Translations under genes and position numbers: made by a program | The notes under the pieces: generated by a model | Database searches by the model: none | Seen by the model: the letters and a program-made list of their open reading frames with translations, nothing else | What the model was told of the DNA's origin: nothing | Shown: positions 3,378 to 17,199 of the stretch, piece by piece | How positions within the stretch are numbered: the stretch's first letter is position 1 | Layout of the letters: each line of letters starts with the position of its first letter | Assembly: GCF_009455635.1 (NCBI RefSeq) | Contig: NZ_QPER01000001.1 | Location: 62,001 to 126,000, forward strand | Direction of reading: 5' to 3' | DNA from: Paraburkholderia agricolaris | GTDB taxonomy: Bacteria > Pseudomonadota > Gammaproteobacteria > Burkholderiales > Burkholderiaceae | Length of the DNA stretch: 64,000 nucleotides

Positions 3378-3961
3378 ATTTACGTTTTCCGATGGCAAAG
3401 ATCTCGCGATGGCTGGCTCCACTTGTGATCGTATTGCTGGTCCTTCCGGCATGCTCGCGAGCAACAGATTCGCCCTCTTCTGACTCGCAAAATGCAGCGC
3501 AAGTAAAAGACGACACAATGGGGCTCAAGCTGGTTGGTTTGAACTACACAGAGATACCGATCGGGGATTTTTACACCAACGGTACTTGGGGGGCAGACAT
3601 TCCTAGCCGCATCGGTAGCTGGAGTGGGACCATTATCTGTTGCGTTTCGTTACCGAAGAGGTGGCATCCCGGCCTGACTGTTACGGTTCAATGGCGAAAC
3701 GACGAAATGTATAAGAAAGATCCTGAGTCGCTGGCAAGCCGCGTAGTACCTGTAGAACCCTATCAACCTTTTTTTGATGGTTCTCTCTGGGTAATGTTTT
3801 TTCCAGGCGACAAGATCAAGGTATATGCCTCACAGTGGTCACCAGGGTTCCCAGGCTTTCCGGAAGGCCTGCAAGAGCCGGGGGCTGCCTGTCCAAATCA
3901 TTTTACTTTGAAGAACGACGATCCCCATTGTCCTTTGCCCGATAAGAGGATTAAGCCATGA
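3374..3961 (+). CDS. DUF3304 lipoprotein, copy 4 (next to the effector)
   Basis: 195 aa, ATGA overlap with copy 3 and again with the effector gene. Signal peptide ending VLPAC (lipobox), then a short polar linker with an insertion SSDSQNAAQ absent from the other copies, then the conserved DUF3304 body. In this copy YEYFSDGF has changed to YQPFFDGS, and the CC and HFTLKN landmarks are kept. Being immediately upstream of and coupled to the effector, it is the best candidate for the cognate immunity protein; the other three may protect against related effectors from other strains. Confidence 0.82.
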   Translation: MNLRFPMAKISRWLAPLVIVLLVLPACSRATDSPSSDSQNAAQVKDDTMGLKLVGLNYTEIPIGDFYTNGTWGADIPSRIGSWSGTIICCVSLPKRWHPGLTVTVQWRNDEMYKKDPESLASRVVPVEPYQPFFDGSLWVMFFPGDKIKVYASQWSPGFPGFPEGLQEPGAACPNHFTLKNDDPHCPLPDKRIKP

Positions 3962-6309
3962 GTTTCCGTTTTGCATCGGCCGAGCGGCCCGATATTGGTG
4001 TGTCGACAAAGGATGAACAGTCAGCAATTCTGCGCCGTCTAGCTGAGGACGATGGTATGAGTTGCTGCAAAACTCTGCATATCGGTTTCTTCTTTGATGG
4101 CACGCGGAACAATGCGGACAAAGATAGTGCCGGTCATAAGCATAGTAACGTAGCCCGGCTATTGGCTACCCATCCGCTTGATCAATATAATCGGCGTATC
4201 TACGTCGCGGGTGTCGGTACACCGTTCACCAGTGAGATCGGTGACTATGGTGCGGGATTGCAAGCAGCAGCCGGCGCCGCAACTGGCTGGGCCGGGGAAG
4301 GTAGAATTAATTGGGCGTTGCTACAACTACATAATACTTTGCATAATTATGTTTATGGTGCTTCGCTAAGTTCTGTCACGCAAAAAACCGACAAAGACAT
4401 CGTAAAAGCCATGAGCGCCGACATGAATTTCGTCGGCATGGGCCTCGGCAATAACCCACCTACCCCCGGTTCCATTCGTGACATCAATGCTCGCGCCAGT
4501 GCCAGCTCGGGCGCTCTGACGTTGATGGTTTCCGAACACACCGGCACCGAGTTGCGCTGGGACAGGGACACGTTGTGGGCGCAACTATGGAAAGACACGG
4601 CCAATTCCGAAAATTGGAAACAGGCGCTGCAAGTATGGGATCAAAACCGGCGCAAGATATTGGCCGAGCGTCGTGCGCAACTGAACGCACGTGTCGGAAA
4701 TAAATTAACCACAGGCAAACCGAAACTGCAGCGCATACGCCTGTCGGTGTTCGGATTTTCGCGCGGCTCCGCAGAGGCGCGCACGTTCTGCAACTGGCTG
4801 GTCGATGCGTTGGACGATGGCTTCACGCTGTGCGGTGTGCCCGTCACGGTCGATTTTCTCGGCCTCTTCGACACAGTAGCGTCGGTGGGCATCGCCCAAG
4901 GTGCCTCCGCCACCTTGTTCGATGGACATGGCGGCTGGGGGCGTGCCGAGAACATGGCCGTGCCGCTACATGTTCGCCGCTGCGTCCACATGGTCGCGGC
5001 GCATGAGCCGCGCGGATCATTTCCGCTGGACCTGATCGATCACGCTACGGGCGACCGCGAGGAAATCGTCTATCCCGGCGTGCACTCCGATGTCGGCGGC
5101 GGCTACGGACCTGCTGAGCAAGGGCGCGGTCAAAGTGATTCCGATAAGTTGTCGCAGGTGCCGTTGCTAGATATGTATCGTGAAGCGCGTAAGGCTGGCG
5201 TGCCGCTCGCTATCAAAGGGCCGGGTATAACCGCGGAAGCTGTTGACGCCTTCAAAATTTCGACCGGTCTGAAACAGGCTTTCTCCGCCTACGTCAACGC
5301 TAGTCCCAGCGATTCCTCCGTGATGGAAAATGGCACGCCGGGCTTGATGCGAGCACATTACGGCCTCTACCTGCGCTGGCGCAAGCAACGGCTCACAGAC
5401 CTCAAAGCGCAGCCGAGTTTCAAGGCCGCACAAGCTGGCTATCCTCAGGACGCCGTGGACCTCGACAGTGCGAACGAGGAGCTTAGGGCGGAATGGCAAG
5501 ATCTGCTTGAAAGCGAGAAAGAAGGCGGCCCGAGTTTGGCACGCTACGCGGTGAAAGGTGCTGACGATTTCGCTCGCAGCCACCCGAAGATCGTCGCTAC
5601 GCTCGCGCCTGTCATCTTGCCCCTAACTGTCGCCGCCGGAGCATTGGCGTCTCCGTTTGAATCTACGGCGATAACAGCCGCCGAAGCCTTGCTAAACGAA
5701 AAATGGCAGCAGTGGCTGGAAGTACGTACCGATTGGAACATGGGCGCGCCGGAGAAGCCGATTAGCGCGCTTTATGACAATTACATGCACGATTCACGCG
5801 CCTGGTTCAAGCCGTTCGGCGCGGATGACGACGTATGGAATTACGAACAGATCAAGGCGCTGAAAGACAAGCAGGCCGCGTTCGAGCGCCAGCATGCCGC
5901 ATGGCAGACGCAGTCTAAAGTGGTGATGCCCGCGAATTATTCAGGCTATCCGGCTGTAACGGCTGGCCCGGAACCCAAATCGCCTCTCACCGCTCAGGAA
6001 ACGGACCAGTTGAAGCGCTACGATTCGGCCATGCAGTCGGCACAAACGGCGCGTCAGGCGAAAGACCCGTCGGCGCCTAATGACAGCGCCGTATTGACCG
6101 ACCCCAAAGTGAGCAAAGGATTGGCCTACCAGAAAAGCGGCCGCGAGTTCTATTTCATGTGGGGCTACTTGCGTTGGCGCACGGTGTACATCAATGGCGT
6201 ACGTTGGGATGCACCGCATGTGAAGACGGTAGAGGAAACGCAGGAGGATGGGCGGAGAGCTGCGCAGCAAATAGTTAACATGCAAGGCTTGAGCGCGCTC
6301 TCTCATTGA
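3958..6309 (+). CDS. Tle1-family T6SS phospholipase effector (DUF2235)
   Basis: 783 aa. The N-terminal two thirds are a DUF2235 alpha/beta hydrolase: HIGFFFDGTRNN near residue 40, the nucleophile elbow GFSRGS with Ser at about 268, GLFDTVAS with Asp at about 305, and GVHSDVGGGY with His at about 376. These are the hallmarks of Tle1, a phospholipase delivered by the T6SS that degrades membrane phospholipids of competitors. The C-terminal part is mostly helical with a hydrophobic stretch (about 545-570, ATLAPVILPLTVAAGALAS) that may associate with membrane. The DUF4123 adaptor and DUF3304 lipoproteins upstream support the assignment. The stop is followed at once by an IS66 remnant, so the natural 3' neighbour may be lost. 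Confidence 0.9.
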   Translation: MSFRFASAERPDIGVSTKDEQSAILRRLAEDDGMSCCKTLHIGFFFDGTRNNADKDSAGHKHSNVARLLATHPLDQYNRRIYVAGVGTPFTSEIGDYGAGLQAAAGAATGWAGEGRINWALLQLHNTLHNYVYGASLSSVTQKTDKDIVKAMSADMNFVGMGLGNNPPTPGSIRDINARASASSGALTLMVSEHTGTELRWDRDTLWAQLWKDTANSENWKQALQVWDQNRRKILAERRAQLNARVGNKLTTGKPKLQRIRLSVFGFSRGSAEARTFCNWLVDALDDGFTLCGVPVTVDFLGLFDTVASVGIAQGASATLFDGHGGWGRAENMAVPLHVRRCVHMVAAHEPRGSFPLDLIDHATGDREEIVYPGVHSDVGGGYGPAEQGRGQSDSDKLSQVPLLDMYREARKAGVPLAIKGPGITAEAVDAFKISTGLKQAFSAYVNASPSDSSVMENGTPGLMRAHYGLYLRWRKQRLTDLKAQPSFKAAQAGYPQDAVDLDSANEELRAEWQDLLESEKEGGPSLARYAVKGADDFARSHPKIVATLAPVILPLTVAAGALASPFESTAITAAEALLNEKWQQWLEVRTDWNMGAPEKPISALYDNYMHDSRAWFKPFGADDDVWNYEQIKALKDKQAAFERQHAAWQTQSKVVMPANYSGYPAVTAGPEPKSPLTAQETDQLKRYDSAMQSAQTARQAKDPSAPNDSAVLTDPKVSKGLAYQKSGREFYFMWGYLRWRTVYINGVRWDAPHVKTVEETQEDGRRAAQQIVNMQGLSALSH

Positions 6310-6545
6310 GTGGTTGGCTTTGTTTATCTGGATAGACGGCTCGGCGCCGACGCGTGCGGACGTGCCTTGCTGCCTGTCACCGTAAATGAGGCCAGTGACG
6401 GCGGTGTGGCCGAACCGGCTGCATCTACGCCTTCGGCACCGGCACCCGGCACGATCCGGATCCGGCTGCCACGAGGTGAGGTACGCGTTGAAGGGAGCGT
6501 CGATCCCGATACGCTGCGCGTGGTGATCCACTTCGCCGCGACCAT
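6310..6545 (+). pseudogene. IS66-family TnpA remnant (C-terminal part)
   Basis: The reading frame right after the Tle1 stop encodes ALLPVTVNEASDGG, a short Pro/Ala linker, then GTIRIRLPRGEVRVEGSVDP and DTLRVVIHFAA. This is the typical end of the small IS66 accessory protein TnpA (LLPV-V, then IRI-LPRG--VEG-VDP--LR-V). The helix-turn-helix front half and the tnpB and tnpC genes are absent, so this is a scar, not a working element. The in-frame GTG at 6310 is probably a coincidence. Confidence 0.7.
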
Positions 6546-6992
6546 CGCTCCTGTTTCAATATCAATGTAATGCTCCAGTATCCAACGCTGTGTTTCATTG
6601 AAAAGTCCCGCTGGTTCCCGGTGCGCAATGTGGATAGTTATCGACGGCTCATAACCGCTATCTATCGCAGCCTTTTCCAACTGTGGCGCAGCGAAGACCG
6701 ACGCCGAATTCCTTAAGCGTTCGGACAGTGGCTATTCTGATGCGGTGTGCTCGGAGGCCAGCATGCCAGGCGCATGAGATGTGCAAATCGAACAGTGATT
6801 CTGGCTTCATCGCGAATCGATCGCCGGATGAACTCCTCAGGAACAACGGAGCATGCCACTCGAATATGGCCAAAGCGCCAGACACGTGTCGCCGGCTGAT
6901 ATTCTGAGGAGATCATCGCAGAGCACGGCGGCGATAAAATTGCCTCAATCGTAAACGTTAGTTTGAAACGAATGGGGTGTACAGGTGAACCC
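6546..6992. other. Intergenic debris between the IS66 scar and the next gene
   Basis: No intact gene here. The minus strand from about 6714 to 6546 reads open as protein-like sequence (ASVFAAPQLEKAAIDSGYEP, later FNETQRWILEHYIDIETG) but lacks a start and is cut by an in-frame stop (TAG near 6722) on one side and the IS66 remnant on the other. A second minus-strand frame (about 6885-6720) carries other protein-like sequence. Together they look like a frameshifted, IS-truncated gene that I cannot identify. Confidence 0.4.
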
Positions 6993-7787
6993 ATGGAAAA
7001 AGCAGTACCGCTGAATACCCCGAAGCGCGACATCAAGAGGCGTTACCTTATCTTGCTCGCTCTCGTGCTTCTTGCCGCGATAGGGTTCGGTCTGGATCGG
7101 AGTCGGCGCATGCCGCTGATTTATGTGATTCCGGAGAGCTATGTCGGTCCGGTGGCCGCGTTGTTCGATCAACCCGATGGCATTGAACCGGTTCATACGA
7201 AGGATGGGCTGGAGGTACGTGTTCCTGAGAACGGCATTATCAAAATCAAAGGCAATCCTAAGCTTGGAAATTCTCGGACCTTTCCAAAAAGTACGGTGGT
7301 ATTCGAACTGGAGAAACGTGACGGTAGCCGCGACGTTCTCTCGGAAGCGATCAACCCGTGGCAAGACTACGACCAGAATGACAATCCACACTGGAAAGTT
7401 GGCATTCGCGACGTACAGGGAAATCTGCGCACCATTGCCGTTTCCGACAAGAAAGAAGGTTTTGTATTTGACGATTTTCCTGAGGTAGACAGAAGCAGGA
7501 CCATGATTTTCTGGCACGAGTCCTGTCAGGACCGCGTGTTTGGTCCGGAGTCGGAGGCTTATCTTGCAGGCGAAAAGACCGCCGAGGAGTTGCATGTCCC
7601 ACCCTGCGGCGAGTTCGTCGTCGGAAGCTTCAACCATATCCGGCAATGGCCCGAATGGATGTTCTTGAGAGGAAAAGGCAAGCAGGAAAAGATGCACGTA
7701 AGAAATCCGACCTATAGCTCCATCCAGGAATTGGTCGACGAGGCCAACGCTCGCGCGGTCAAAAAGAAGGCTGACGGCATCAATTGA
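6993..7787 (+). CDS. Membrane-anchored protein with a DUF6843-like segment
   Basis: 264 aa from the ATG at 6993, chosen because AGGTGA lies just upstream; ATG 6972 and TTG 6963 are alternatives. A basic N-terminus is followed by one transmembrane helix (about residues 18-35, LILLALVLLAAIGFGLD), so most of the protein is periplasmic. It opens with LIYVIPESYVGPVAALFDQP and VRVPENGIIKIKGNP, which resembles the DUF6843 pattern (Y-IP-GYVGPV ... NGI--). Function unknown. Its place between a T6SS effector and another putative T6SS-linked membrane protein suggests immunity or accessory, which is inference. Confidence 0.65.
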   Translation: MEKAVPLNTPKRDIKRRYLILLALVLLAAIGFGLDRSRRMPLIYVIPESYVGPVAALFDQPDGIEPVHTKDGLEVRVPENGIIKIKGNPKLGNSRTFPKSTVVFELEKRDGSRDVLSEAINPWQDYDQNDNPHWKVGIRDVQGNLRTIAVSDKKEGFVFDDFPEVDRSRTMIFWHESCQDRVFGPESEAYLAGEKTAEELHVPPCGEFVVGSFNHIRQWPEWMFLRGKGKQEKMHVRNPTYSSIQELVDEANARAVKKKADGIN

Positions 7788-7907
7788 TTGATCCTGTATC
7801 GATCTGCCCCGAGCACCGAAGAAACACAGAAAGCCGAAAGACAAGTTTCTTTGCGGGTGGCTTTTTTTCGTAACATACCGTGACTGTCTCTCAAAGCAGG
7901 TTGCCAT

Positions 7908-8543
7908 ATGAGTCGAAATAGTCCTGAAAGAAAAGCATGGCGCAAGAGCGTGATTGAAGCCAAAGCGCTCGAGGCTGCGGCTGCGCCTCCGGTAATTACA
8001 GCAAAACTAAGGGGTATGGTACGCAGTACACCCATACGGACTCTCCTTGCGTTGATCGTCACGGCGGTGTGTGCATACCTCCTGCTTAAAGCACTGGTTT
8101 GGGGAGCGAATCGCCTCGGCGTGATGACGTGGGTCCACTATGACTACCCTGTTACGCGCACTGTCTATCTGAATCACAGTCCGTACCTGACGTCCATAAG
8201 CAGCGAATACACGTTGAGCTGGCAACTGCTTGCGCTGCTGTCCCTCGTGCTGGCTTCTTTTGTGGGACGTTGCGTTTGGTACGGCGACTTTCGTGCGGCG
8301 TTCACGCGGCGCGCGCGCTGGCTCATGGTTGGCTGGATACTGGGCCTCGGCTTGCTGATCGCCGAGATGGAACTGGCGTTGAGAGGCGATATACCGCTAG
8401 CCACGCGCATCACCGGGTGGAAGATGGATGTATTCGTGGTCGCGTGGATGCTGTCCGGCAGCTATTTCTGTGGATTCTGGAGCTGGCTGATGCGCCGGTT
8501 GGGCGTTCCGAAAGAAGACGTGTTCACCAGCGATATGCGGTAA
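7908..8543 (+). CDS. Multi-pass membrane protein, unknown
   Basis: 211 aa with four predicted membrane segments: about 44-65 (LLALIVTAVCAYLLLKALVWG), 104-122 (WQLLALLSLVLASFVG), 140-158 (LMVGWILGLGLLIAEMELA) and 176-196 (FVVAWMLSGSYFCGFWSWL). The first 40 residues are charged and cytoplasmic. It lies in line with its two neighbours, 120 bp after one and 66 bp before the next, so the three may be cotranscribed. I do not recognise a family. Confidence 0.6.
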   Translation: MSRNSPERKAWRKSVIEAKALEAAAAPPVITAKLRGMVRSTPIRTLLALIVTAVCAYLLLKALVWGANRLGVMTWVHYDYPVTRTVYLNHSPYLTSISSEYTLSWQLLALLSLVLASFVGRCVWYGDFRAAFTRRARWLMVGWILGLGLLIAEMELALRGDIPLATRITGWKMDVFVVAWMLSGSYFCGFWSWLMRRLGVPKEDVFTSDMR

Positions 8544-8609
8544 AGGGTAGTGTCATATCTCCGGTGGAAAAAACAACGGTGTTAATAGATGAATGCGTAA
8601 CTAAGCTCT

Positions 8610-9290
8610 TTGAGCGGGAAAGTGTCCAACCTGCGATATTCGCTGGAGGAGCGCCAATCGAAGGCGCGGGAGTTCGAGCGGAAAGCCGCGCTGCTATCTC
8701 CCATCCTGCTCGCACTGAGTGGCAATGGCGGACTGGCCGTAGGCAATATGGCGGTCAACTACGGCATGTCGAATGCCAGGGGCAAGGCTTACTGGGTCGA
8801 GTTCGACGTGGACGGGAGGGCACTAAAGGGGTGGCTCGGCGGCGTCTATTTCAAAGACGGCGATGCGGTTGATGTCGTGGTGGAACGGAACGAAACTTTG
8901 TTGGCTGTGAGCAGCGCTGAAGAACGGGTCATCGCCATTTTGCCGCCGTGCGGCAGTAGCCCAAAAATGATCTATAAATACATCCGTTATACGTTCATTG
9001 GAATTTTTCTATTCCTTTTCCTGTTTCTCGGCGTAGGCTTTTTCTTTGTTGCCGCCCGAGAAGATCTCGCCGAGCTGATCTCCATTGCCTTCCCCTGCGC
9101 GATTGCTGTGGCATTGTTTGTTGCGGTCGGTGCGAACTGGCGCGAGTTGCTTCATGCCGTGCGTACAAGAAAAATTCTGACGGCGCTGGAACTGCCAGAA
9201 GCGGACTCTCTCGATTTACCGACAAGGTCCTACGAGCTTCTCGGCAAGGGCAAGGTACAGGGCAGTGTGGGCACGGTGTATCGCTATTGA
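8610..9290 (+). CDS. Small membrane protein of the kind found beside T6SS effector loci
   Basis: 226 aa from a TTG at 8610 (GTG at 8622 is also possible; an in-frame stop at 8598 excludes anything longer). Residues 1-55 form a charged helix followed by a glycine-rich segment; then comes a beta-rich part with YWVEFDVDGRALKGWLGGVY and DGDAVDVVVE. Two transmembrane helices follow (about 130-152 and 160-180), and a cytoplasmic tail. The W-EFD-DG---GWL pattern recalls proteins annotated as putative T6SS effectors in enterics and Burkholderia. I treat that as a weak resemblance. Confidence 0.6.
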   Translation: MSGKVSNLRYSLEERQSKAREFERKAALLSPILLALSGNGGLAVGNMAVNYGMSNARGKAYWVEFDVDGRALKGWLGGVYFKDGDAVDVVVERNETLLAVSSAEERVIAILPPCGSSPKMIYKYIRYTFIGIFLFLFLFLGVGFFFVAAREDLAELISIAFPCAIAVALFVAVGANWRELLHAVRTRKILTALELPEADSLDLPTRSYELLGKGKVQGSVGTVYRY

Positions 9291-9363
9291 CGGTCCTCTT
9301 CCAAATCGAGGAGGTTCCGCTATCGAAAGTCGACCTCGCTACTAGCGACACCTTGGTCGTCGA

Positions 9364-10707
9364 TTAAGAATCAAGATTCCACACGATCCGATCGAAGATC
9401 GCTTTTAACTTCTCTCCTCTGGCCGCATTCAGCATTGCAGCATGCGCAACGCGACCTGCCAGGTGCGCCCGAAAATCCGCATGCCTCTCGCGATTCTGCG
9501 AGCCCGGTCCGTGCCTCACGCAATTTGTGAGCACCGCTTTCAAAGTATCAAACTCCGGCCGCGCAAGATTCGGATGGCTGTTCACCACAACCCCGGCCAG
9601 ATGCTGTCTTGCGCCACGCCGCATCACCCGCGTCTTTCTTAGATTGACTGCAAACCCTTCCTCAATAGCGATCGCCGCCACGCGAATCTCAACCCGCTGA
9701 GCCATCCGCGCGAGGTCATCGCCACCGGAAAACGCCAGATCATCGGCATACCGCGTATACGTCGCACCGAGAGACCGCGCCAGCCCAGCCAGCCTCAGGT
9801 CCAGTCGAAACGCACACAAATTCGCCAGCGCCGGCGAACTGGGCGCCCCTTGCGGCAAATGCCGGTTTCGATACCGCTGCCGCTCCTGCCAATCGACCCC
9901 GTCCCGCACATCCGGCGCCAGCAGGCGGCCACTCGGCACCCGATTGGTACACAGCGCAGTTAATGCCCGGGCAACTCCCAGTGGATAACCCAAAGCACGT
10001 ATCGTGGAGTAAACGCGTCCTTCGTGGACAGACGCAAAGAAATCCGTCAGATCGAAGCGGATCACAACCGCTTTCCCGGCATGTGGCGCCGCGAACGTAA
10101 CCGCATTCCGTCCACGTCGAAAACCGTGCACTGCATCGTGAGCAGGAACCCGATCGAGTAAGCCATGAAGCACTTTCCGCTGCAAAGCCCGCAAACGCGA
10201 TTTGGGCACCTCGATAATCCGACACCGACCGTCGCGTTTCTCGATCACTTTGTACGAATAGTGATGAAGCGGCGTCCCCGCATTTCGAGCGGGTACACGC
10301 CAGCGATCGGCAAACCAGTCCAGCTCGTCCGGTGCAATTTCCAGCCACACGGCCAGATCACCGAGCGTCGGCAACTGCGGTAGCGCCACGTCATGCAACC
10401 AGGGCGGAGGTGGCCGCTGAAAAGGCGGCCGGCGCAAAACACGCAAAACCCTCGGCCGGTTGTCACCCCTCCACGCCGAGACAAACCCCGTGGTCTCAGC
10501 AATGACCTTCGACAGCTCTTTGCTTTCAACGCTGTCCCAGCGCGAGCCAAATCGCTTCGCAACCCTTCCCGCCAACCGATTCATCCAATCCGCGGGGCCG
10601 CCCAACACAAGCGTCATCCGCGCGACCATCGCCGTTGGCTCGGGCGTCCCGGCCAACATGGCATCGGCGATCGCGTAAGTGACAAACTGCAGAGAAGTTG
10701 ACGGCAT
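9364..10707 (-). CDS. Retron-type reverse transcriptase with long N-terminal extension
   Basis: 447 aa from the ATG at 10707; ATG 10764 and TTG 10779 would add 19 or 24 Arg/Pro-rich residues, and none has a good ribosome site. Residues 1 to about 110 are an extension with no known domain, then a Pro-rich hinge. The RT proper has VIRFDLTDFFASV (about 215-227), LPQGAPSSPALANL (284-297) and the catalytic YTRYADDLAFSG (317-328). Layout and motif order resemble the myxobacterial retron RTs that also carry such an extension. Two retron hallmarks are diverged: FAAPH where NAxxH is expected and LAGVVVN where VTGLVVN is expected. A candidate msr-msd RNA lies immediately upstream at 10790-11015. No nuclease, toxin or other effector gene is adjacent. 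Catalysis is predicted; a defence role is inference from the retron class. Confidence 0.88.
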   Translation of the reverse strand: MPSTSLQFVTYAIADAMLAGTPEPTAMVARMTLVLGGPADWMNRLAGRVAKRFGSRWDSVESKELSKVIAETTGFVSAWRGDNRPRVLRVLRRPPFQRPPPPWLHDVALPQLPTLGDLAVWLEIAPDELDWFADRWRVPARNAGTPLHHYSYKVIEKRDGRCRIIEVPKSRLRALQRKVLHGLLDRVPAHDAVHGFRRGRNAVTFAAPHAGKAVVIRFDLTDFFASVHEGRVYSTIRALGYPLGVARALTALCTNRVPSGRLLAPDVRDGVDWQERQRYRNRHLPQGAPSSPALANLCAFRLDLRLAGLARSLGATYTRYADDLAFSGGDDLARMAQRVEIRVAAIAIEEGFAVNLRKTRVMRRGARQHLAGVVVNSHPNLARPEFDTLKAVLTNCVRHGPGSQNRERHADFRAHLAGRVAHAAMLNAARGEKLKAIFDRIVWNLDS

Positions 10708-10752
10708 AGAGCAAAGAGAGGGGCGGGGCGGCCAGTCAACGCGTCTTGTGCT

Positions 10753-10791
10753 GCGTGAGCTCATTTGCGCAACGCGCAAGTCGGCTCATGC
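10753..10791 (-). promoter_or_regulatory. Two-part hairpin over the RT translation start
   Basis: On the RT strand the outer arms GCATGAGC (10791-10784) and GCTCACGC (10760-10753) pair with one mismatch around an inner perfect TTGCGC-GTT-GCGCAA hairpin (10779-10765). It abuts the proposed a2 arm of the ncRNA and contains two of the three possible RT starts (10779, 10764). It could hide the start or mark the border between ncRNA and mRNA. Confidence 0.5.
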
Positions 10792-11015
10792 GACGAACTG
10801 CGGAGGTCTTTCTGATCCACGGGGTAGCCCCGTAGCGCCCGGAACGAATACTGCCTGTACCCTGGCAAGCTTGACCAGCCGTCCCGCGGATCGAAGATAA
10901 GCGACGCAGCCAAGCGTTGTCAACGCATTGGCAGTACGAAACAATCTTTCTCGACAAAGTTTCACACAAGTGTCGATCGAACGACACGTGCACAAACATC
11001 CCCTCCGTTTGTCGC
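10790..11015 (-). ncRNA. Candidate retron msr-msd ncRNA
   Basis: Read 5' to 3' on the RT strand. a1: GCGACAAACGGAGG (11015-11002) pairs with a2: CCTCC-GCA-GTTCGTCGC (10806-10790), 13 pairs, one A-C mismatch and a 3-nt bulge. Next come three hairpins of an msr-like part: GTGTCG-TTCGAT-CGACAC (10987-10970), CTTT-GTCGAG-AAAG inside GAAAC/GTTTC, and GCCAA-T-GCGTT-GAC-AACGC-TTGGC (10932-10909). The msd-like stem is GATCCGCGGG (10892-10883) with CCCGTGGATC (10823-10814), ten contiguous pairs including one G-U. It is prolonged by TCTTC with A-bulged GAAAGA, and its base touches a2. Total length 226 nt with an msd near 91 nt is typical of retrons. A competing hairpin ACGGGG-CTA-CCCCGT sits inside. 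By-eye folding only. Confidence 0.6.
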
Positions 11016-11060
11016 CGGGTCATAACAGGCGACCCAAGCCACCGGCAAGGAGCCACCCAC

Positions 11061-11069
11061 TTATCCACA
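11061..11069 (+). promoter_or_regulatory. DnaA box (perfect consensus)
   Basis: TTATCCACA, the strong DnaA-binding 9-mer, in the gap upstream of the reverse transcriptase. Binding is predicted from sequence only. Confidence 0.5.
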
Positions 11070-11244
11070 ACCCCCTCTGGACAACTTTTGTACAAGACAC
11101 CGGACACGTTGTGGGCGAAACCTTGATAAATCCGCGATCTCGCCAGGTCAGTCAGAAGTTTTCCCTGGCTCCGCCTGCCTGTTCGCACGCGCTCCGCAGG
11201 GTTATCGATTTCGCAGCCCCTTGATCCGTAAACGAAGATTCAAG

Positions 11245-11253
11245 TTATCCACA
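11245..11253 (+). promoter_or_regulatory. DnaA box (perfect consensus), second copy
   Basis: TTATCCACA again, same strand, 184 bp from the first copy. Two perfect boxes in one short gap is more than chance would usually give. Confidence 0.5.
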
Positions 11254-11385
11254 GCCAGGCGGGGTGCTTGTTAACTATTACTACGTATACATATACAAAG
11301 ACTATAAAAACCAGAGAGGCATCCGGGAAGCACGCTGCGTAAACATGCACAAAGCAGGCAGAACAAACAGGACCAGGCCAAGCCA

Positions 11386-12252
11386 TCAAACCAGCGGCAA
11401 ACAAATCTCCGTCAGCAACTCAGCAGGCGCAGTCTCCTTCGGGCTATTCAGATACTCCTCGAACACCGGCGCATCCGCAGCCTCACGCCCCGATTGCACG
11501 AGCCAAGTCCCATACAACCACTCATAAGCCGCACGCATATCGCTGTACGGTCCCTTATGCCGCAACACCGCGTACTCCCCACCCTTCACATGCGCCACCG
11601 AAACTGGCGGACTCACCGTCACCGAAGCCTGCACCGGATGCGGCAACAACACCCCAGCCTTCGAGCGCAACTCATCCTCCGCAACCACACCCGGATCGTC
11701 GTAGTAAATCCCGATCATGCGCATCTGGCCCATTAGCAAATTGTGTTTTGCCAACCAGCCGAACAAGCCGTCGAACGCCTTGCCGATCTGCATATACGAC
11801 CCCACGTGATCCACCGACAAAATCTCCATCGGCTCAACGTGGCGAATTACCACTTCACGTATCGTCATTTGATCGTCTCCTGAAAGCGCCGGACGAAACC
11901 GGCTATGGGTTCCCTGCTTGCGGTACTGCGCCGGCGGAATGCCGAACACGGCGCGAAAAGTGCGGGAGAAAGACTGCAAACTGCTATAGCCCGAACGCTC
12001 GGCAATTTCCGCGATCGGCATCGAGCCATTCGCCAGATATCCCGCCGCGCGATGCAGTCGCAAGCGCCGCACGGTTGTCGCGACCGTTTCGCCATACATC
12101 GCCTGATAGATGCGATGCCAGTGATACGGCGACATGCAGGCAATCTCCGCCAACCGTTCGATATCCAGCGGTTCGTCGAGATGATCGTAAATATGGTCGA
12201 GCACGCGGCTCAACCGGGTTTCGTAGCGCGCCCGATTATCCGATGGGTTCAT
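11386..12252 (-). CDS. AraC-type regulator with GyrI-like effector-binding domain
   Basis: 288 aa from the ATG at 12252; the frame is open 47 codons further up but that part is not conserved-looking. Residues about 12-110 are an AraC double helix-turn-helix (YIYDHLDEPLDIERLAEIAC, then IAEIAERSGYSSLQSFSRTF and GIPPAQYR). Residues about 130-288 form a GyrI/SbmC-like small-molecule domain (IRHVEPMEILSVDHVGSY ... YAVLRHKGPYSDMRAAYEWLYGTWL). This architecture, DNA binding first and GyrI second, is that of Rob/BmrR-like sensors that respond to amphipathic or cationic compounds. The target is unknown. It may regulate itself; no obvious partner gene is next to it. Confidence 0.85.
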   Translation of the reverse strand: MNPSDNRARYETRLSRVLDHIYDHLDEPLDIERLAEIACMSPYHWHRIYQAMYGETVATTVRRLRLHRAAGYLANGSMPIAEIAERSGYSSLQSFSRTFRAVFGIPPAQYRKQGTHSRFRPALSGDDQMTIREVVIRHVEPMEILSVDHVGSYMQIGKAFDGLFGWLAKHNLLMGQMRMIGIYYDDPGVVAEDELRSKAGVLLPHPVQASVTVSPPVSVAHVKGGEYAVLRHKGPYSDMRAAYEWLYGTWLVQSGREAADAPVFEEYLNSPKETAPAELLTEICLPLV

Positions 12253-12440
12253 GAGTGAGTAGAGTGGCGTGGCTAACCACCAGAAGATTGCCGAAGGAAT
12301 GCGGACAAAAGTACCACGTCCCCGTTTACCAAATCCTGCGAACTTCACATAGCGCAAGCAAATGGAGTTAAACATTCGCTGATACGCGCGCATCCCGAAC
12401 TTTGCCGAGTTTCGATGACACCTCTAATAATGGCTCACGA

Positions 12441-12836
12441 CTAAGCGTCCACTCGCTCTACCGGATGGGTGTCTAGCCACGCGTTTTCATCGTCTTCGAA
12501 GAGTCGCGAGCGCGTGAGAAAACGCAACCCGCTCGGCCGCTCCAGAGAAAACATGCCGCCATTGCCCGGCACCACGTCGATGATCAATTGCGTGTGCTGC
12601 CAGTACTCGAACTGCGATTCACTCATGTAGAACGGCACGCCGGCAATCGTGCCGAGTTTCACATCGGACGAGCCGACCATGAACTCGCTCTGCGGGAACA
12701 TCATCGGCGCGCTACCGTCGCAGCATCCACCGGATTGGTGAAACAGCACGGCACCGTGTTCGGCACATAGCTTATCGATCAATTCGATCGCGGCTGGCGT
12801 GGCGATCACGCGGGCCACTTGCTTCTCGTCAGCCAT
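12441..12836 (-). CDS. DUF779 protein partnered with aldehyde dehydrogenase
   Basis: 131 aa from the ATG at 12836 with AGGG upstream; an ATG at 12872 would extend into the terminator region. It contains HGAVLFHQSGGCCDGSAPMM near residue 32, with a CC pair, and GVPFYMSESQFEYWQHTQLIIDVVPG; these are typical of DUF779. Such genes almost always follow an acetaldehyde-type aldehyde dehydrogenase, as here, so it is probably an accessory factor for it; its biochemistry is not known. The gap between the two genes contains a strong terminator hairpin, so its expression is likely lower than that of the dehydrogenase. Confidence 0.85.
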   Translation of the reverse strand: MADEKQVARVIATPAAIELIDKLCAEHGAVLFHQSGGCCDGSAPMMFPQSEFMVGSSDVKLGTIAGVPFYMSESQFEYWQHTQLIIDVVPGNGGMFSLERPSGLRFLTRSRLFEDDENAWLDTHPVERVDA

Positions 12837-12851
12837 CACATACCCTCGCTG

Positions 12852-12882
12852 AAAAAAGAGCGAGCCGCACAATGCGGCTCGC
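12852..12882 (-). terminator. Intrinsic terminator between aldehyde dehydrogenase and DUF779 genes
   Basis: On the minus strand GCGAGCCGCA-TTG-TGCGGCTCGC, a perfect 10-bp stem, is followed by CTCTTTTTT. It lies inside the two-gene unit and should attenuate read-through into the DUF779 gene. Confidence 0.8.
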
Positions 12883-12902
12883 CCGGACAGGAGACGTTAC
12901 GC

Positions 12903-14423
12903 TCAGAAGAAGCCGAGCGGCTTATCGCTATAGCTGACGAGCAGGTTCTTGGTCTGTTGATAGTGGTTGAGCATCATCTTGTGATTCTCGCGGCCGATGC
13001 CCGATTGCTTGTAGCCACCAAACGCAGCATGGGCCGGATACGCGTGATAGCAGTTGGTCCACACGCGGCCAGCCTGGATTTGCCGGCCGAAGCGATAGGC
13101 GCGCGTACCGTCGCGCGTCCACACGCCGGCGCCCAGACCATAGAGCGTATCGTTGGCGATCTCGAGCGCTTCGTCTTCGTTCCTGAAGGTGGTCACGGAA
13201 ACGACCGGCCCGAAGATTTCTTCCTGGAAGATGCGCATCTTGTTGTGGCCACGGAATACGGTCGGCTTCACGTAATAGCCTTTGCTAAGTTCGCCGCCGA
13301 GCGTATTGCGCTCACCGCCGATCAGACACTCGGCGCCTTCCTGTTTGCCAAGGTCGACGTACGAGAGGATTTTTTCCAGCTGTTCCTGTGAGGCTTGCGC
13401 GCCGATCATCGTCTTCGTGTCGAGCGGATGGCCTTGCGTGATCGCGGCCACGCGTTTCAATGCGCGCTCCATGAAGCGGTCGTAAATCTTTTCGTCGATC
13501 AGCACACGCGACGGACACGTGCACACTTCGCCCTGATTCAGCGCGAACATCGTGAAGCCTTCGAGCGCCTTGTCGAAATAGCTGTCGTCTTCGTTCATCA
13601 CGTCGGCGAAGAAAATGTTCGGGCTTTTGCCGCCGAGTTCGAGCGTGACCGGAATGATGTTCTGGCTTGCGTACTGCATGATCAGGCGACCGGTGGTCGT
13701 CTCACCTGTAAACGCGATCTTCGCGATGCGCTTGCTCGACGCGAGCGGCTTGCCGGCGTCGAGGCCAAACCCGTTCACCACGTTTAAGACACCCGGCGGC
13801 AGCAGATCGTGGATCAGTTCGAGCAGGACAAGAATCGACGCAGGCGTTTGCTCGGCCGGCTTCAGTACGACGCAGTTGCCGGCAGCCAATGCGGGGGCGA
13901 GTTTCCACACCGCCATCAGGATCGGGAAATTCCACGGAATGATCTGACCGACCACGCCGAGCGGTTCGTGAAAGTGATAGGCAACGGTATCGTGGTCGAT
14001 CTCGGAGATCGAGCCTTCCTGCGCACGCACGGCGCCGGCGAAATAGCGGAAATGATCGATGGCGAGCGGGATATCGGCGGCCATTGTTTCGCGCAACGGC
14101 TTGCCGTTGTCGATCGTTTCAGCCACGGCGATGCGTTGCAGATTCGCTTCCATCCGGTCGGCGATGCGGTTCAGTATGTTCGCGCGTTCGGTCGTCGACG
14201 TTTTACCCCACGCTGCCTTTGCACGATGCGCGGCGTCGAGGGCGAGTTCGATGTCGGCTTCGCGTGAGCGCGGGATCGATGTAAACGGCTCACCGGTGAT
14301 CGGCGACACGTTGTCGAAGTACTCGCCCCCCACCGGCTTTACCCATTCGCCGCCGATAAAATTCGCATACTGTTTTTTGTACGGAAATTCGGTAGTCAGA
14401 AACTGCATCTCTGCGTGATTCAT
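12903..14423 (-). CDS. NAD-dependent aldehyde dehydrogenase (acetaldehyde type, ExaC/AcoD-like)
   Basis: 506 aa from the ATG at 14423, which has GAGGAG about 8 nt upstream. It oxidises an aliphatic aldehyde, probably acetaldehyde, to the acid with NAD+. Visible landmarks: [20 protein letters not shown], the cofactor-site FTGETTTGR, the general-base glutamate in [12 protein letters not shown], the catalytic cysteine in [14 protein letters not shown] and EIFGPVVSV. Length is normal for the family. The DUF779 gene follows it. The promoter region carries a sigma-54-type -24/-12 element and a long inverted repeat, so an enhancer-binding activator such as AcoR is expected; no such gene is in the window. 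Confidence 0.93.
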
Positions 14424-14492
14424 CTGTGTGCTCCTCACATGATTGAATGGGCTATATTCGGCGCGATATTTCGCTTGGCCGCGAGAGCTTAG

Positions 14493-14508
14493 AGCCAGAA
14501 CTGTGCCA
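14493..14508 (-). promoter_or_regulatory. Sigma-54 (-24/-12) promoter for aldehyde dehydrogenase
   Basis: The minus strand reads TGGCACAGTTCTGGCT. GG and GC are separated by exactly 10 nt as in the TGGCAC-N5-TTGCW consensus; only the -12 half (TGGCT) departs slightly. It lies about 70 bp upstream of the start codon. Confidence 0.65.
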
Positions 14509-14596
14509 ACGCACCGCAGCCACGCCCGCGAAGCGCGAGTGCGTGGTCTGGTTCACCTTGCCGGGAATTGAACGTGGCGTTTCTGATCAGTGTGCG

Positions 14597-14633
14597 CAGC
14601 GCTGTTCAGGAATTGAACAATTGAACAGCGCTG
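14597..14633. promoter_or_regulatory. 12-bp inverted repeat, probable enhancer site
   Basis: Perfect arms CAGCGCTGTTCA and TGAACAGCGCTG with a 13-bp centre that itself holds another TTGAACA. It is about 100 bp upstream of the sigma-54-type element, the usual place for an enhancer-binding protein. The end of the convergent-side gene (cadA) lies at 14701. Confidence 0.6.
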
Positions 14634-14700
14634 GGCACCTGCGGGGAAGATCGAAGCAACGGCGGGCAGCCTGGAATGCCCACGCGCGGGTGCGGGGAGA

Positions 14701-17199
14701 TTACTTGCGCAACAGCCTCAGACCGTTCGCCACTACCAGCAGGCTCGCGCCCACATCCGCGAACACGGCCATCCACATCGTGCCCAGACCCATCATCGTC
14801 AGCACGAGAAACACGCTCTTGATACCCAGCGCCAGCGTAATGTTCTGCACCAGCACCGAATGCGTTGCCTTCGACAGACGGATGAACTGCGGAATCTTGC
14901 GCAGATCGTCGTCCATCAAGGCGACGTCGGCGGTTTCGATCGCGGTGTCGGTGCCCATTGCGCCCATTGCGAAACCAATATCGGCACGCGCGAGAGCGGG
15001 AGCGTCGTTGATGCCGTCGCCAACCATGCCGACCGTCGCGCCGTCTTTCGACCAGCCGTCCACGGCGTTCAGCTTGTCCTCGGGCAACTGATTGCCGCGC
15101 GCTTCGTCGATGCCGACTTGCTGCGCGATCGCGGCAGCCGTGTGCGGGTTGTCACCGGTGAGCATGGCGGCATGCACACCGAGGCGCTGCAATTCGGCAA
15201 TGGCGGCGCGGCTCGTGTCCTTCACCGTGTCCGCGACGGCAAACAGCGCGAGCACGCGTTCAGAGTCCACTAGCATCACGACGGTTTTGCCTTGCCCTTC
15301 GAGCGTGTCCAGCCGCGCTTCGAGCGACGCCGAACAGCGCCCGAGTTCTTCGACCAGCCGATGATTGCCGAGCCAGTACGGCAAGCCATCGATTTCGCCT
15401 CGCACGCCGCGGCCTGCCAGTGCCTCGAAGGCATCGACCGTGGCACTGGTGACGCTGTCGTTTTTTGCCGCTGCGGCGATTGCCATCGACACCGGGTGAT
15501 CCGAACGACCCGCCAGGCTGGCGGCGAGTGTCCGGCAACGCACGATCTCGACGTCGGCCAGGATCTCGAACTCGGTTTGCACGGGTTTGCCGTGCGTGAG
15601 CGTGCCGGTTTTGTCGAGCGCGAGCCGGCTCAGCTTGCGGCCCTGTTCAAGGTAGGCGCCGCCTTTGATCAGGATGCCCTTACGCGCGGCAGCCGCGAGG
15701 CCGCTGACGATCGTGACCGGTGTCGAGATCACCAGCGCGCACGGACAGGCGATCACCAGCATCACGAGTGCCTTGTAGACCCATTCGTGCCACTGTCCGC
15801 CGAACAGCAGCGGCGGCAACACTGCTACCGCGAGTGCGGCCGCGAATACGATCGGCGTATAGACGCGGGCGAACTGATCGACGAAACGCTGGGTCGGCGC
15901 CTTGGTGCCTTGCGCTTCCTCGACCGCGTGAATGATGCGTGCGAGCGTCGTGTTGCTGGCGGCGGCCGTGACGCGATAGTCGAACGAGCCGGCCTGGTTG
16001 ATCGTGCCGGCGAACACCGCGTCGCCCACGGTCTTGTCGACCGGCAGGCTTTCGCCGGTGATCGGCGCCTGATCGATGCTCGAACGGCCCGCGACGATTT
16101 CACCATCGAGCGCAATCCGCTCACCCGGCTTCACGCGTACCACTGCGCCGAGCGCGATCGACTTGAGGTCCGCGAGCTGCCAGCTGCCGTCGGCCTGTTG
16201 CACGCTGGCCTGTTCCGGCGTGAGTTGCATCAGCCCCTGGATGGCGTTGCGGGCGCGGTCGAGCGATTTCGCTTCGATCAGTTCGGCAATCGTGAAGAGC
16301 ACCATCACCATGGCGGCTTCCGGCCATTGCTGGAGGACCAGCGCGCCGGTCACCGCAATGCTCATCAACGCGTTGATGTTCAGGTTGCCGTTGCGGATCG
16401 CAACCCAGCCCTTTCTGTACGTTGTGAGGCCGCAGGCGGCGATTGCGAGGATCGCCAGACCCGCAGCCAGCCAGGTGGAGGCGCCAAGCCAGCTGGCCGC
16501 CTCTGAGCCTACCGCGGCGACGCCGGCGAGCGCCAGTGGCCACCACGGCTTGGCCGGCGCTTCAAGGGCGGCGGCTGCCGCGTCCAGGTTCGCGTCCGCC
16601 AGTTCAGGCGTGAAGTCGAGCGAACGGATCGCGGCGAGGATCGACTCGAGCGCGTCCGGCGCGTGGACGACGGTCAACACGCGCTGCATCAGGTTGAAGT
16701 CCATGCTGCGCACCTGCGGCATGCGGCTGAATTTCTTGCGGATTAGCGCTTCTTCGGTCGGGCAATCCATCTGCATGATGCGGATCGCGGTGCGCAAGTC
16801 GTTGCCGACGGCTTCCGATTGCGGCAGCTTGACCGGCGCGGCTGCGACATGCGTCGTTCCGCAACAGCCTGCTTCGGCGTGACGGTGGGCTTGGTGGGTG
16901 TGCGCATGGCCATGGTCGTGCGCTTTGTGGTCGTGGCCGTCGCTTCCGCCTTGGGCATGATCGTCATGCTGGTCATGGTCGTGCGTTTCGTGACCGTGGC
17001 TGCAGCTTTCGCCGTGCTCATGAGCGTGTACGTGGTCCGGCTCATGTGTCCCCGTTTTGTTGCCGTGAGCGCAGTTTTCACCATGCCCGTGGCTGTGAGC
17101 ATCGTCATGCGCATGCTCGTGGGCATGCCCTTCGTGCCCGTGGGCACGGGCTTTGGCTTGTTCCGGGCGATCTGCTTCGGCGAGGTCGGCGTGTGGCAT
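14701..17199 (-). CDS. cadA: Heavy-metal efflux P1B-type ATPase (Cd/Zn/Pb) with His-rich N-terminus
   Basis: 832 aa. It exports soft divalent metals from the cytoplasm. The first 110 residues are extremely His/Asp/Gly-rich (repeated HGH, HEH, HDH) and include an AGCCGTTH motif, so they likely bind metal. A ferredoxin-like metal-binding domain follows, with MDCPTEE instead of the CxxC motif. Then come membrane helices, TGES (actuator), the ion-site VIACPCALVIS, DKTGTLTHGK with the phosphorylated Asp, and VGDGINDAPAL. The divergent MerR gene and its 19-bp-spacer promoter at 17229-17259 show metal-inducible control. Substrate within the Cd/Zn/Pb group cannot be fixed from sequence. Confidence 0.93.
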   Translation of the reverse strand: MPHADLAEADRPEQAKARAHGHEGHAHEHAHDDAHSHGHGENCAHGNKTGTHEPDHVHAHEHGESCSHGHETHDHDQHDDHAQGGSDGHDHKAHDHGHAHTHQAHRHAEAGCCGTTHVAAAPVKLPQSEAVGNDLRTAIRIMQMDCPTEEALIRKKFSRMPQVRSMDFNLMQRVLTVVHAPDALESILAAIRSLDFTPELADANLDAAAAALEAPAKPWWPLALAGVAAVGSEAASWLGASTWLAAGLAILAIAACGLTTYRKGWVAIRNGNLNINALMSIAVTGALVLQQWPEAAMVMVLFTIAELIEAKSLDRARNAIQGLMQLTPEQASVQQADGSWQLADLKSIALGAVVRVKPGERIALDGEIVAGRSSIDQAPITGESLPVDKTVGDAVFAGTINQAGSFDYRVTAAASNTTLARIIHAVEEAQGTKAPTQRFVDQFARVYTPIVFAAALAVAVLPPLLFGGQWHEWVYKALVMLVIACPCALVISTPVTIVSGLAAAARKGILIKGGAYLEQGRKLSRLALDKTGTLTHGKPVQTEFEILADVEIVRCRTLAASLAGRSDHPVSMAIAAAAKNDSVTSATVDAFEALAGRGVRGEIDGLPYWLGNHRLVEELGRCSASLEARLDTLEGQGKTVVMLVDSERVLALFAVADTVKDTSRAAIAELQRLGVHAAMLTGDNPHTAAAIAQQVGIDEARGNQLPEDKLNAVDGWSKDGATVGMVGDGINDAPALARADIGFAMGAMGTDTAIETADVALMDDDLRKIPQFIRLSKATHSVLVQNITLALGIKSVFLVLTMMGLGTMWMAVFADVGASLLVVANGLRLLRK

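Follow-up and report, generated by a model that had tools for sequence, protein, structure and literature searches.

Is the reverse transcriptase (RT) gene of this Paraburkholderia DNA part of a retron and, if so, where does its RNA begin and end, and with what would it act? Retrons of types I–XIII are tripartite and are defined by a linked or fused effector; these types were reportedly defined by Mestre in 2020. The biology of retrons since 2020 has been framed around such linked effectors, and a widely conserved family with a tight RT–RNA bond and without a recognised partner makes the function of effectorless retrons testable in a tractable genus. An earlier note on the window, i.e., the whole 64,000-nucleotide stretch analysed here, had proposed an undescribed retron with a 226-nt RNA. 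From sequence comparison, the reading reached below, a retron with the revised anatomy of Table 1, is given a joint probability of about 0.85.

The reverse transcriptase and its N-terminal domain

The claim of a YADD RT was borne out, as the frame carries the motif and a predicted retron-RT fold: in a structure comparison ranks 1–14 were all retron RTs, with group II, DGR and DRT enzymes behind. The host had likewise been placed correctly among the betaproteobacteria, the nearest named relatives being Paraburkholderia. A longer frame of 471 aa (9364–10779, minus strand) opens at TTG 10779, but several homologues have a stop between that position and the ATG, and for this reason ATG 10707 is probably the start.

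A ten-sequence RT alignment scanned against named genome contigs confirmed at least 577 loci, of which the best 80 were kept. For the comparison of RTs, 56 of these 80 served; of the others, L123 was too short and the rest begin late in the query. Across 57 family RTs the catalytic motif is YADD in 51, YVDD in five and SADD in one. Region Y, where VTG is expected in retron RTs, reads LAG in the window, with VTG in 12 of the 57 and any xTG in 18. Region X (NAXXH) reads FAAPH, and its histidine is present in all 57 RTs, its alanine in 45 and its asparagine in seven; two validated retrons also lack this asparagine, according to PMC6868368. A second, distant RT-like place lies elsewhere in the same genome (G000:C2:714271-715098, plus strand), with pieces of 29% and 23% identity and a 397-aa open frame.

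Ahead of the RT core, a five-helix bundle was predicted with confidence, in agreement with the earlier assignment to the group of N-terminally extended RTs: the predicted helical extension of about 100 residues is conserved in the family. Its sequence is poorly conserved (mean column identity 24% over 52 sequences, with A14, R30 and L45 at 90% or more), and the domain is retained across phyla. A search of PDB structures with it found no convincing relative. Among linked features, it alone is a candidate for an effector or docking module built into the system. At L137, 28 nt separate the end of the RNA from the place matching RT residue 108, which is why the RT of that locus may miss the extension.

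Position and anatomy of the RNA

The earlier note rightly recognised a structured, conserved RNA directly upstream of the RT. Covariance model R1, made from 30 sequences, places it at 10887–10723 (187.9 bits, E 2e-40) and model R2, made from 64 cross-phylum sequences, scores it at 121 bits, the window RNA itself being among the rows of both. Nineteen upstream regions, window included, share a conserved block from the TTGACA box through to the RT start, and the transcript is predicted to start near 10887.

Table 1. Coordinates of the retron features in the window.
Feature	Position	Strand	Basis or detail
-35 box TTGACA, kept in relatives	10918..10923	-	upstream-region comparison
-10-like box TATCTT, 18-nt spacer	10894..10899	-	upstream-region comparison
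msr-msd noncoding RNA, whole element, ~165 nt	10723..10887	-	covariance models, covariation
a1 arm	10871..10887	-	RNAalifold, R1, duplex test
AGC; G10870 = predicted 2'-5' priming guanosine	10869..10871	-	AGC rule, PMC6868368
Signature msr hairpin CTACGGGG-CTA-CCCCGTGG, form GGGG-N3-CCCC	10817..10835	-	99.2% of cells paired across phyla
Predicted msd template	10740..10800	-	a2 start and retron rule
msd two-part stem	10753..10791	-	outer 10791-10784/10760-10753 (one A-C mismatch); inner 10779-10774/10770-10765
a2 arm	10723..10739	-	pairs with a1 at 16 positions in the window, one mismatch
RT, YADD retron-type, uninterrupted	9364..10707	-	447 aa from ATG 10707; YADD = residues 320-323
N-terminal extension, ~100 residues, predicted five-helix bundle	10408..10707	-	helices 6-18, 24-35, 40-59, 62-71, 73-80

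The pattern CGGGG[CT]TACCCCG of the hairpin occurs once in the 64-kb window. The AGC priming rule for retrons is described in PMC6868368; in the window the priming context is AAGC, at the inner end of a1, and among 64 cross-phylum rows it is AAGC in 33, GAGC in three and CAGC in one, the other 27 differing at this site (AAGA 7, GAGT 4, AGGC 3, GAGA 3 and others). By analogy with known retrons, the msDNA would be the complement of 10740–10800, starting opposite 10740 and about 55–65 nt long, its 3′ end being a guess.

An Rfam search of 5000–16000 gave no match at the RNA element at E ≤ 1, and to this extent the word "undescribed" fits; the RT group, for its part, had already been profiled in PADLOC as untyped. 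A sub-threshold Rfam match to Atu_C4 at 12849–12919 (minus strand; 28.9 bits vs. a cut-off of 80) is probably due to chance.

Covariation evidence for the revised structure

The first alignment, A1, has 32 slices, that of the window among them and the others from relatives in the genus and the order. Excluded were L045, which repeats the locus of L001, L034, whose RNA slice is that of L006, and L046 and L047; these two had been caught by the pattern, L047 on the strand other than that of its RT. In L039 and L042 the pattern does not match exactly, but R1 detects the RNA. RNAalifold applied to A1 gave 35 pairs, which make up a long a1/a2 helix, the hairpin and the two-part msd stem, and 14 of them show kept double, i.e., compensatory, changes. 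Of the cells, 98.1% are paired, as compared with 93.1% in shuffles (0 of 500 as high) and 34–44% when the partners are slid by 1–3 columns. In the hairpin 10835–10817 every cell pairs.

The second alignment, A7, was made with MAFFT from 64 cross-phylum sequences: the window, L018 and L019 (both omitted from A3), L046–L048 and 58 of the 80 named loci (best 80 of at least 577). The weak matches L138, L145 and L128 were retained, and the close relatives L075–L078, L080 and L082 were omitted together with several weaker matches. Here RNAalifold gave 26 pairs, 23 of them with double changes, and 93.6% of the cells are paired vs. 76.7% in shuffles (0 of 500 as high) and 35–46% when slid, counts that lean towards the structure, since the rows were chosen by a covariance model already holding it.

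Linkage of the RNA to the RT and distribution of the family

The best 80 of at least 577 loci include members of Pseudomonadota, Planctomycetota, Acidobacteriota, Myxococcota, Gemmatimonadota, Actinomycetota and Verrucomicrobiota, the labels being taken from record titles and tree labels, with many MAGs, such that single assignments may be wrong. At 78 of these 80 the RNA was found, at 77 on the strand of the RT. R1 detected it on that strand at 73 (E ≤ 0.05), and R2 added L128, L089, L142 and the contig-cut L139, L128 being a row from which R2 was built (R1 gave it E 0.056). At L140:5759-5929 (minus strand), from a Solirubrobacterales MAG, the family RNA and the RT are on different strands, and at L106 and L129, where the RT matches begin at a contig end, neither model found an RNA. 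At each of the 77 same-strand loci, the RT match begins only after the RNA has ended. The distance from the RNA to the projected RT start has a median of 14 nt, with 72 of the 77 between -30 and +94 nt; at L131, L137, L142, L144 and L147 the RNA reaches further into the projected N-terminus. At 24 RT loci outside the family R2 gave no match at E ≤ 1, and R1 gave none at the five such loci to which it was applied; L022, which belongs to the family by the tree, was weakly matched (E 0.14 with R1, 0.43 with R2). At the level of sequence, comparison shows the promoter-like boxes, the structure of the RNA and its linkage to the RT.

Within the genus, the RT was found in 34 of 144 genomes (E ≤ 1e-60) and the RNA in 35 (E ≤ 0.01), with one match each and all 34 RT-bearing genomes included; in the extra genome, G197, the RNA lies 377 nt from a contig start. 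The RT match is partial in eight of the 34 (G194, G031, G167, G199, G014, G051, G019, where it sits at contig ends, and G192) and the RT of G047 has an in-frame stop, from which it appears that the element is often lost or broken; in these eight genomes and in G047 the RNA is still found. Most RT matches, 27 of 34, start within 10 kb of a match to the same AraC-type locus (19 within 3 kb), and in the remaining genomes the AraC-type match is on another contig in two and absent in five. In 11 of the 12 compared relatives that lack the RT, long similarity to the window stops at 11053–11061, and in the twelfth, L213, at 10982. One of the eleven, L216 (G065), keeps in addition a short piece of promoter and a1, 82% identical and matching window 10869–10950, which is apparently the remnant of a lost retron. 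Taken together, the AraC-type linkage, the broken copies and the shared end-points of similarity suggest that the address on the chromosome is old and that the element has been lost from it repeatedly.

The patchiness within the genus, the partial RTs beside a persisting RNA and the lack of a recurring partner gene (see below) would also suit an element that makes msDNA and is nonetheless a selfish or neutral retroelement without host function, a reading that concerns the role and not the anatomy. We consider it unlikely in view of the common AraC-type address, the small number of copies on plasmid or phage records, and the retention of both the N-terminal domain and the RNA across phyla.

Search for a partner gene

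ORFs of at least 70 aa within about 6.5 kb were clustered at 100 loci, which hold two genomes twice (L056/L075 and L061/L076), and the 25 largest clusters were listed. Some of the clusters listed are the RT itself, antisense frames of the RT and the shared local context of genus relatives. Of the others, one 13-locus cluster links distant loci, but with scattered positions and on both strands, like a large common protein family, and smaller clusters also link a few distant loci; none of these has a fixed place beside the RT. A same-strand ORF of at least 100 aa follows the RT within 100 bp at 13 of 73 loci (from the best 80 of at least 577, seven of the 80 being without a callable RT frame). 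Among the first downstream ORFs of 69 loci, at most two matched any one of the 92 Pfam families hit, and each of the 21 PADLOC profiles hit was matched by a single ORF; some of these profiles, e.g., PDC-M05B and PDC-S07, are defence candidates. ORFs were called crudely, as the longest open frames, and for genes upstream the clustering was the only search. A linked or fused effector such as defines types I–XIII was recognised neither in the 100-locus clustering nor among the downstream ORFs or the neighbours in the window, and because this search found no partner gene, the RT–RNA family looks solitary.

An effector may nevertheless be linked and have been missed, e.g., if each locus had a different small or fast-evolving protein, ORFs below 70 aa being outside the clustering; this, too, would bear on the role and leave the anatomy as it is. 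The 13 loci with a close same-strand ORF and the single matches to defence profiles would be in keeping with it. On the other side, the next downstream gene in the window (8610–9290, plus strand) converges on the RT, the Pfam families do not recur beyond two of the 69 ORFs, and single downstream ORFs are core genes, e.g., with the domains ACCA, Queuosine_synth, MutS and GMP_synt_C. A missed effector is, on balance, improbable.

Two T6SS-related genes lie beside the retron, at 3958–6309 and 8610–9290 (both plus strand), the pair consisting of a Tle1-like phospholipase domain protein and a putative T6SS effector matching NCBIfam T6SS_Burk_ExIF. Upstream of the retron, two TGTGGATAA words, candidate DnaA boxes by their sequence, are present at 11061–11069 and 11245–11253 (minus strand).

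Proposed mechanism and boundaries of the RNA

By the retron rule, and thus by analogy, the promoter at 10923–10894 would drive an RNA from about 10887 that runs on into the RT gene and folds, with a1 pairing with a2. The RT would bind this RNA, perhaps via the GGGG-N3-CCCC hairpin, prime from the 2′-OH of G10870 and copy the msd upward from 10740, which would result in a short branched msDNA of the length given above. As no linked partner gene was found, the RT–msDNA particle is proposed to act with its own N-terminal helical domain or with a host factor that is not linked to it. As to its role, that of a phage or stress sensor is the most likely, suggested tentatively and at slightly less than even odds; such a sensor would presumably do without a linked toxin. 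A broader proposal, held with still less confidence, is that the family represents an old, mainly chromosomal retron lineage, present in at least seven phyla and working with RT and RNA alone. In such a lineage the N-terminal bundle would itself serve as effector or for docking, and the short msDNA with its double stem would act in sensing or regulation, in a manner different from the toxin-guard scheme of typed retrons.

The RNA ends only 15 nt ahead of the RT start codon in the window, as might a leader that controls translation of the RT, i.e., an attenuator or a protein-binding site rather than a template. Against such a leader stand the order of promoter, a1, AGC, msr hairpin, msd stem and a2, which is that of a retron, and the AAGC at the inner end of a1 in 33 of the 64 cross-phylum rows. 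The leader is therefore regarded as highly improbable, and the RNA is taken to be a template.

The boundaries differ from those drawn earlier. The a1 arm had been placed at 11015–11002, beginning 128 nt upstream of the RNA start and beyond the conserved promoter, and it does pair with the former a2 (10806–10790) in the window, where an ungapped test gave 11 pairs. This pairing does not clearly exceed chance, as stability in the window is matched by 14 of 100 shuffles in the duplex test described next, and the former a1 blocks have 46–61% identity vs. 73–89% inside the RNA (15-nt blocks, 32 relatives). In a duplex test of 32 homologues (L034 among them), where support means that at most 5 of 100 shuffles, keeping single-base composition only, are as stable, the former a1/a2 region was supported in one and the revised a1/a2 in all 32. 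For the former arms, a stretch of about 110 nt ahead of the promoter was free to pair in any way with the former a2 region, and this stretch was longer than that supplied for the revised a1. The earlier note had named homologues without conserved upstream pairing as an outcome that would speak against a retron; pairing is in fact conserved.

The ten-pair msd stem (10892–10883 with 10823–10814) is fully paired in the window (10 of 10). In A1, 77.1% of its cells are paired vs. 76.2% in column shuffles (63 of 500 reach that value), it exceeds slid controls (33–55%), its covariation score is reached by 9 of 500 shuffles, and it competes with the hairpin 10835–10817. Where three msr-like hairpins had been described, one is conserved. 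The compensatory changes that the earlier note had looked for in homologues do occur, in the revised a1/a2 and msd stems, the arms as drawn being unsupported. In spite of its pairing in the window and of the slid controls, the 226-nt architecture can be set aside as almost certainly wrong, given the single supported homologue, an msd stem at the level of shuffles and an a1 arm upstream of the promoter. The length is accordingly revised to about 165 nt, and because the drawn a1/a2 and msd arms are unsupported, the predicted msDNA shifts from 10807–10897 to about 10740–10800, which spares a bench group a search at the wrong place. Covariance models from the family can also help to find such RNAs and to bound them correctly; a use of the short msd in genome editing is speculation.

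Comparison with known retrons

In a tree of 83 RT cores, which is only roughly settled (bootstrap correlation 0.975), the family forms one clade with support 100/99 that includes L022, a long branch, and RTs with RT_XIII as best profile fall outside it. Among PADLOC profiles, RT_other (E 2.8e-149) and RT_outgroup (4e-140) match the window RT best, over residues 21–468 of the 471-aa frame, and RT_XIII ranks third (E 4.5e-88). The same two profiles are the best for the four scanned family RTs, i.e., L128 and L103 (Myxococcota), L151 (Actinomycetota) and L022; both are profiles of RTs only, untyped and without an attached effector type. PADLOC also holds msr-msd covariance models, and the family RNA was set against Rfam only.

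The RTs of retron type XIII, represented by L169, which we take to be Mx162-like, and by L166, presumably Mx65-like (a guess from its length), share with the family an N-terminal extension and an occurrence in myxobacteria. They differ in having RT_XIII as best profile, in lying outside the family clade and in N-termini that read differently, and R2 found no family RNA at either locus. At three other loci with RTs outside the family (L023, L049 and L051) a different upstream RNA-like stretch was seen by eye; it includes a long hairpin, and the word GGATCGCC is shared by all three. L023, the only one of the three scanned, has RT_XIII as its best profile.

Since no linked effector was recognised and the RT stands apart from the RT_XIII-best enzymes, the element is, on sequence grounds, a retron outside types I–XIII that matches the untyped RT group of PADLOC. 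Retrons without clear effector association are mentioned in PMC8867640. Retron-Eco1 (Ec86) works with an effector, according to the title of entry 7v9x, and its structural match to the window RT omits the N-terminal bundle. N-terminal extensions are reported for Mx162, Mx65, Sa163 and Ne144 in PMC6868368. The experimentally validated Retron-Mxa2 (Mx65), as described there, resembles the family in its N-terminal extension, in the replaced asparagine of region X and in its priming site GAGC, which recurs in three of the 64 cross-phylum rows.
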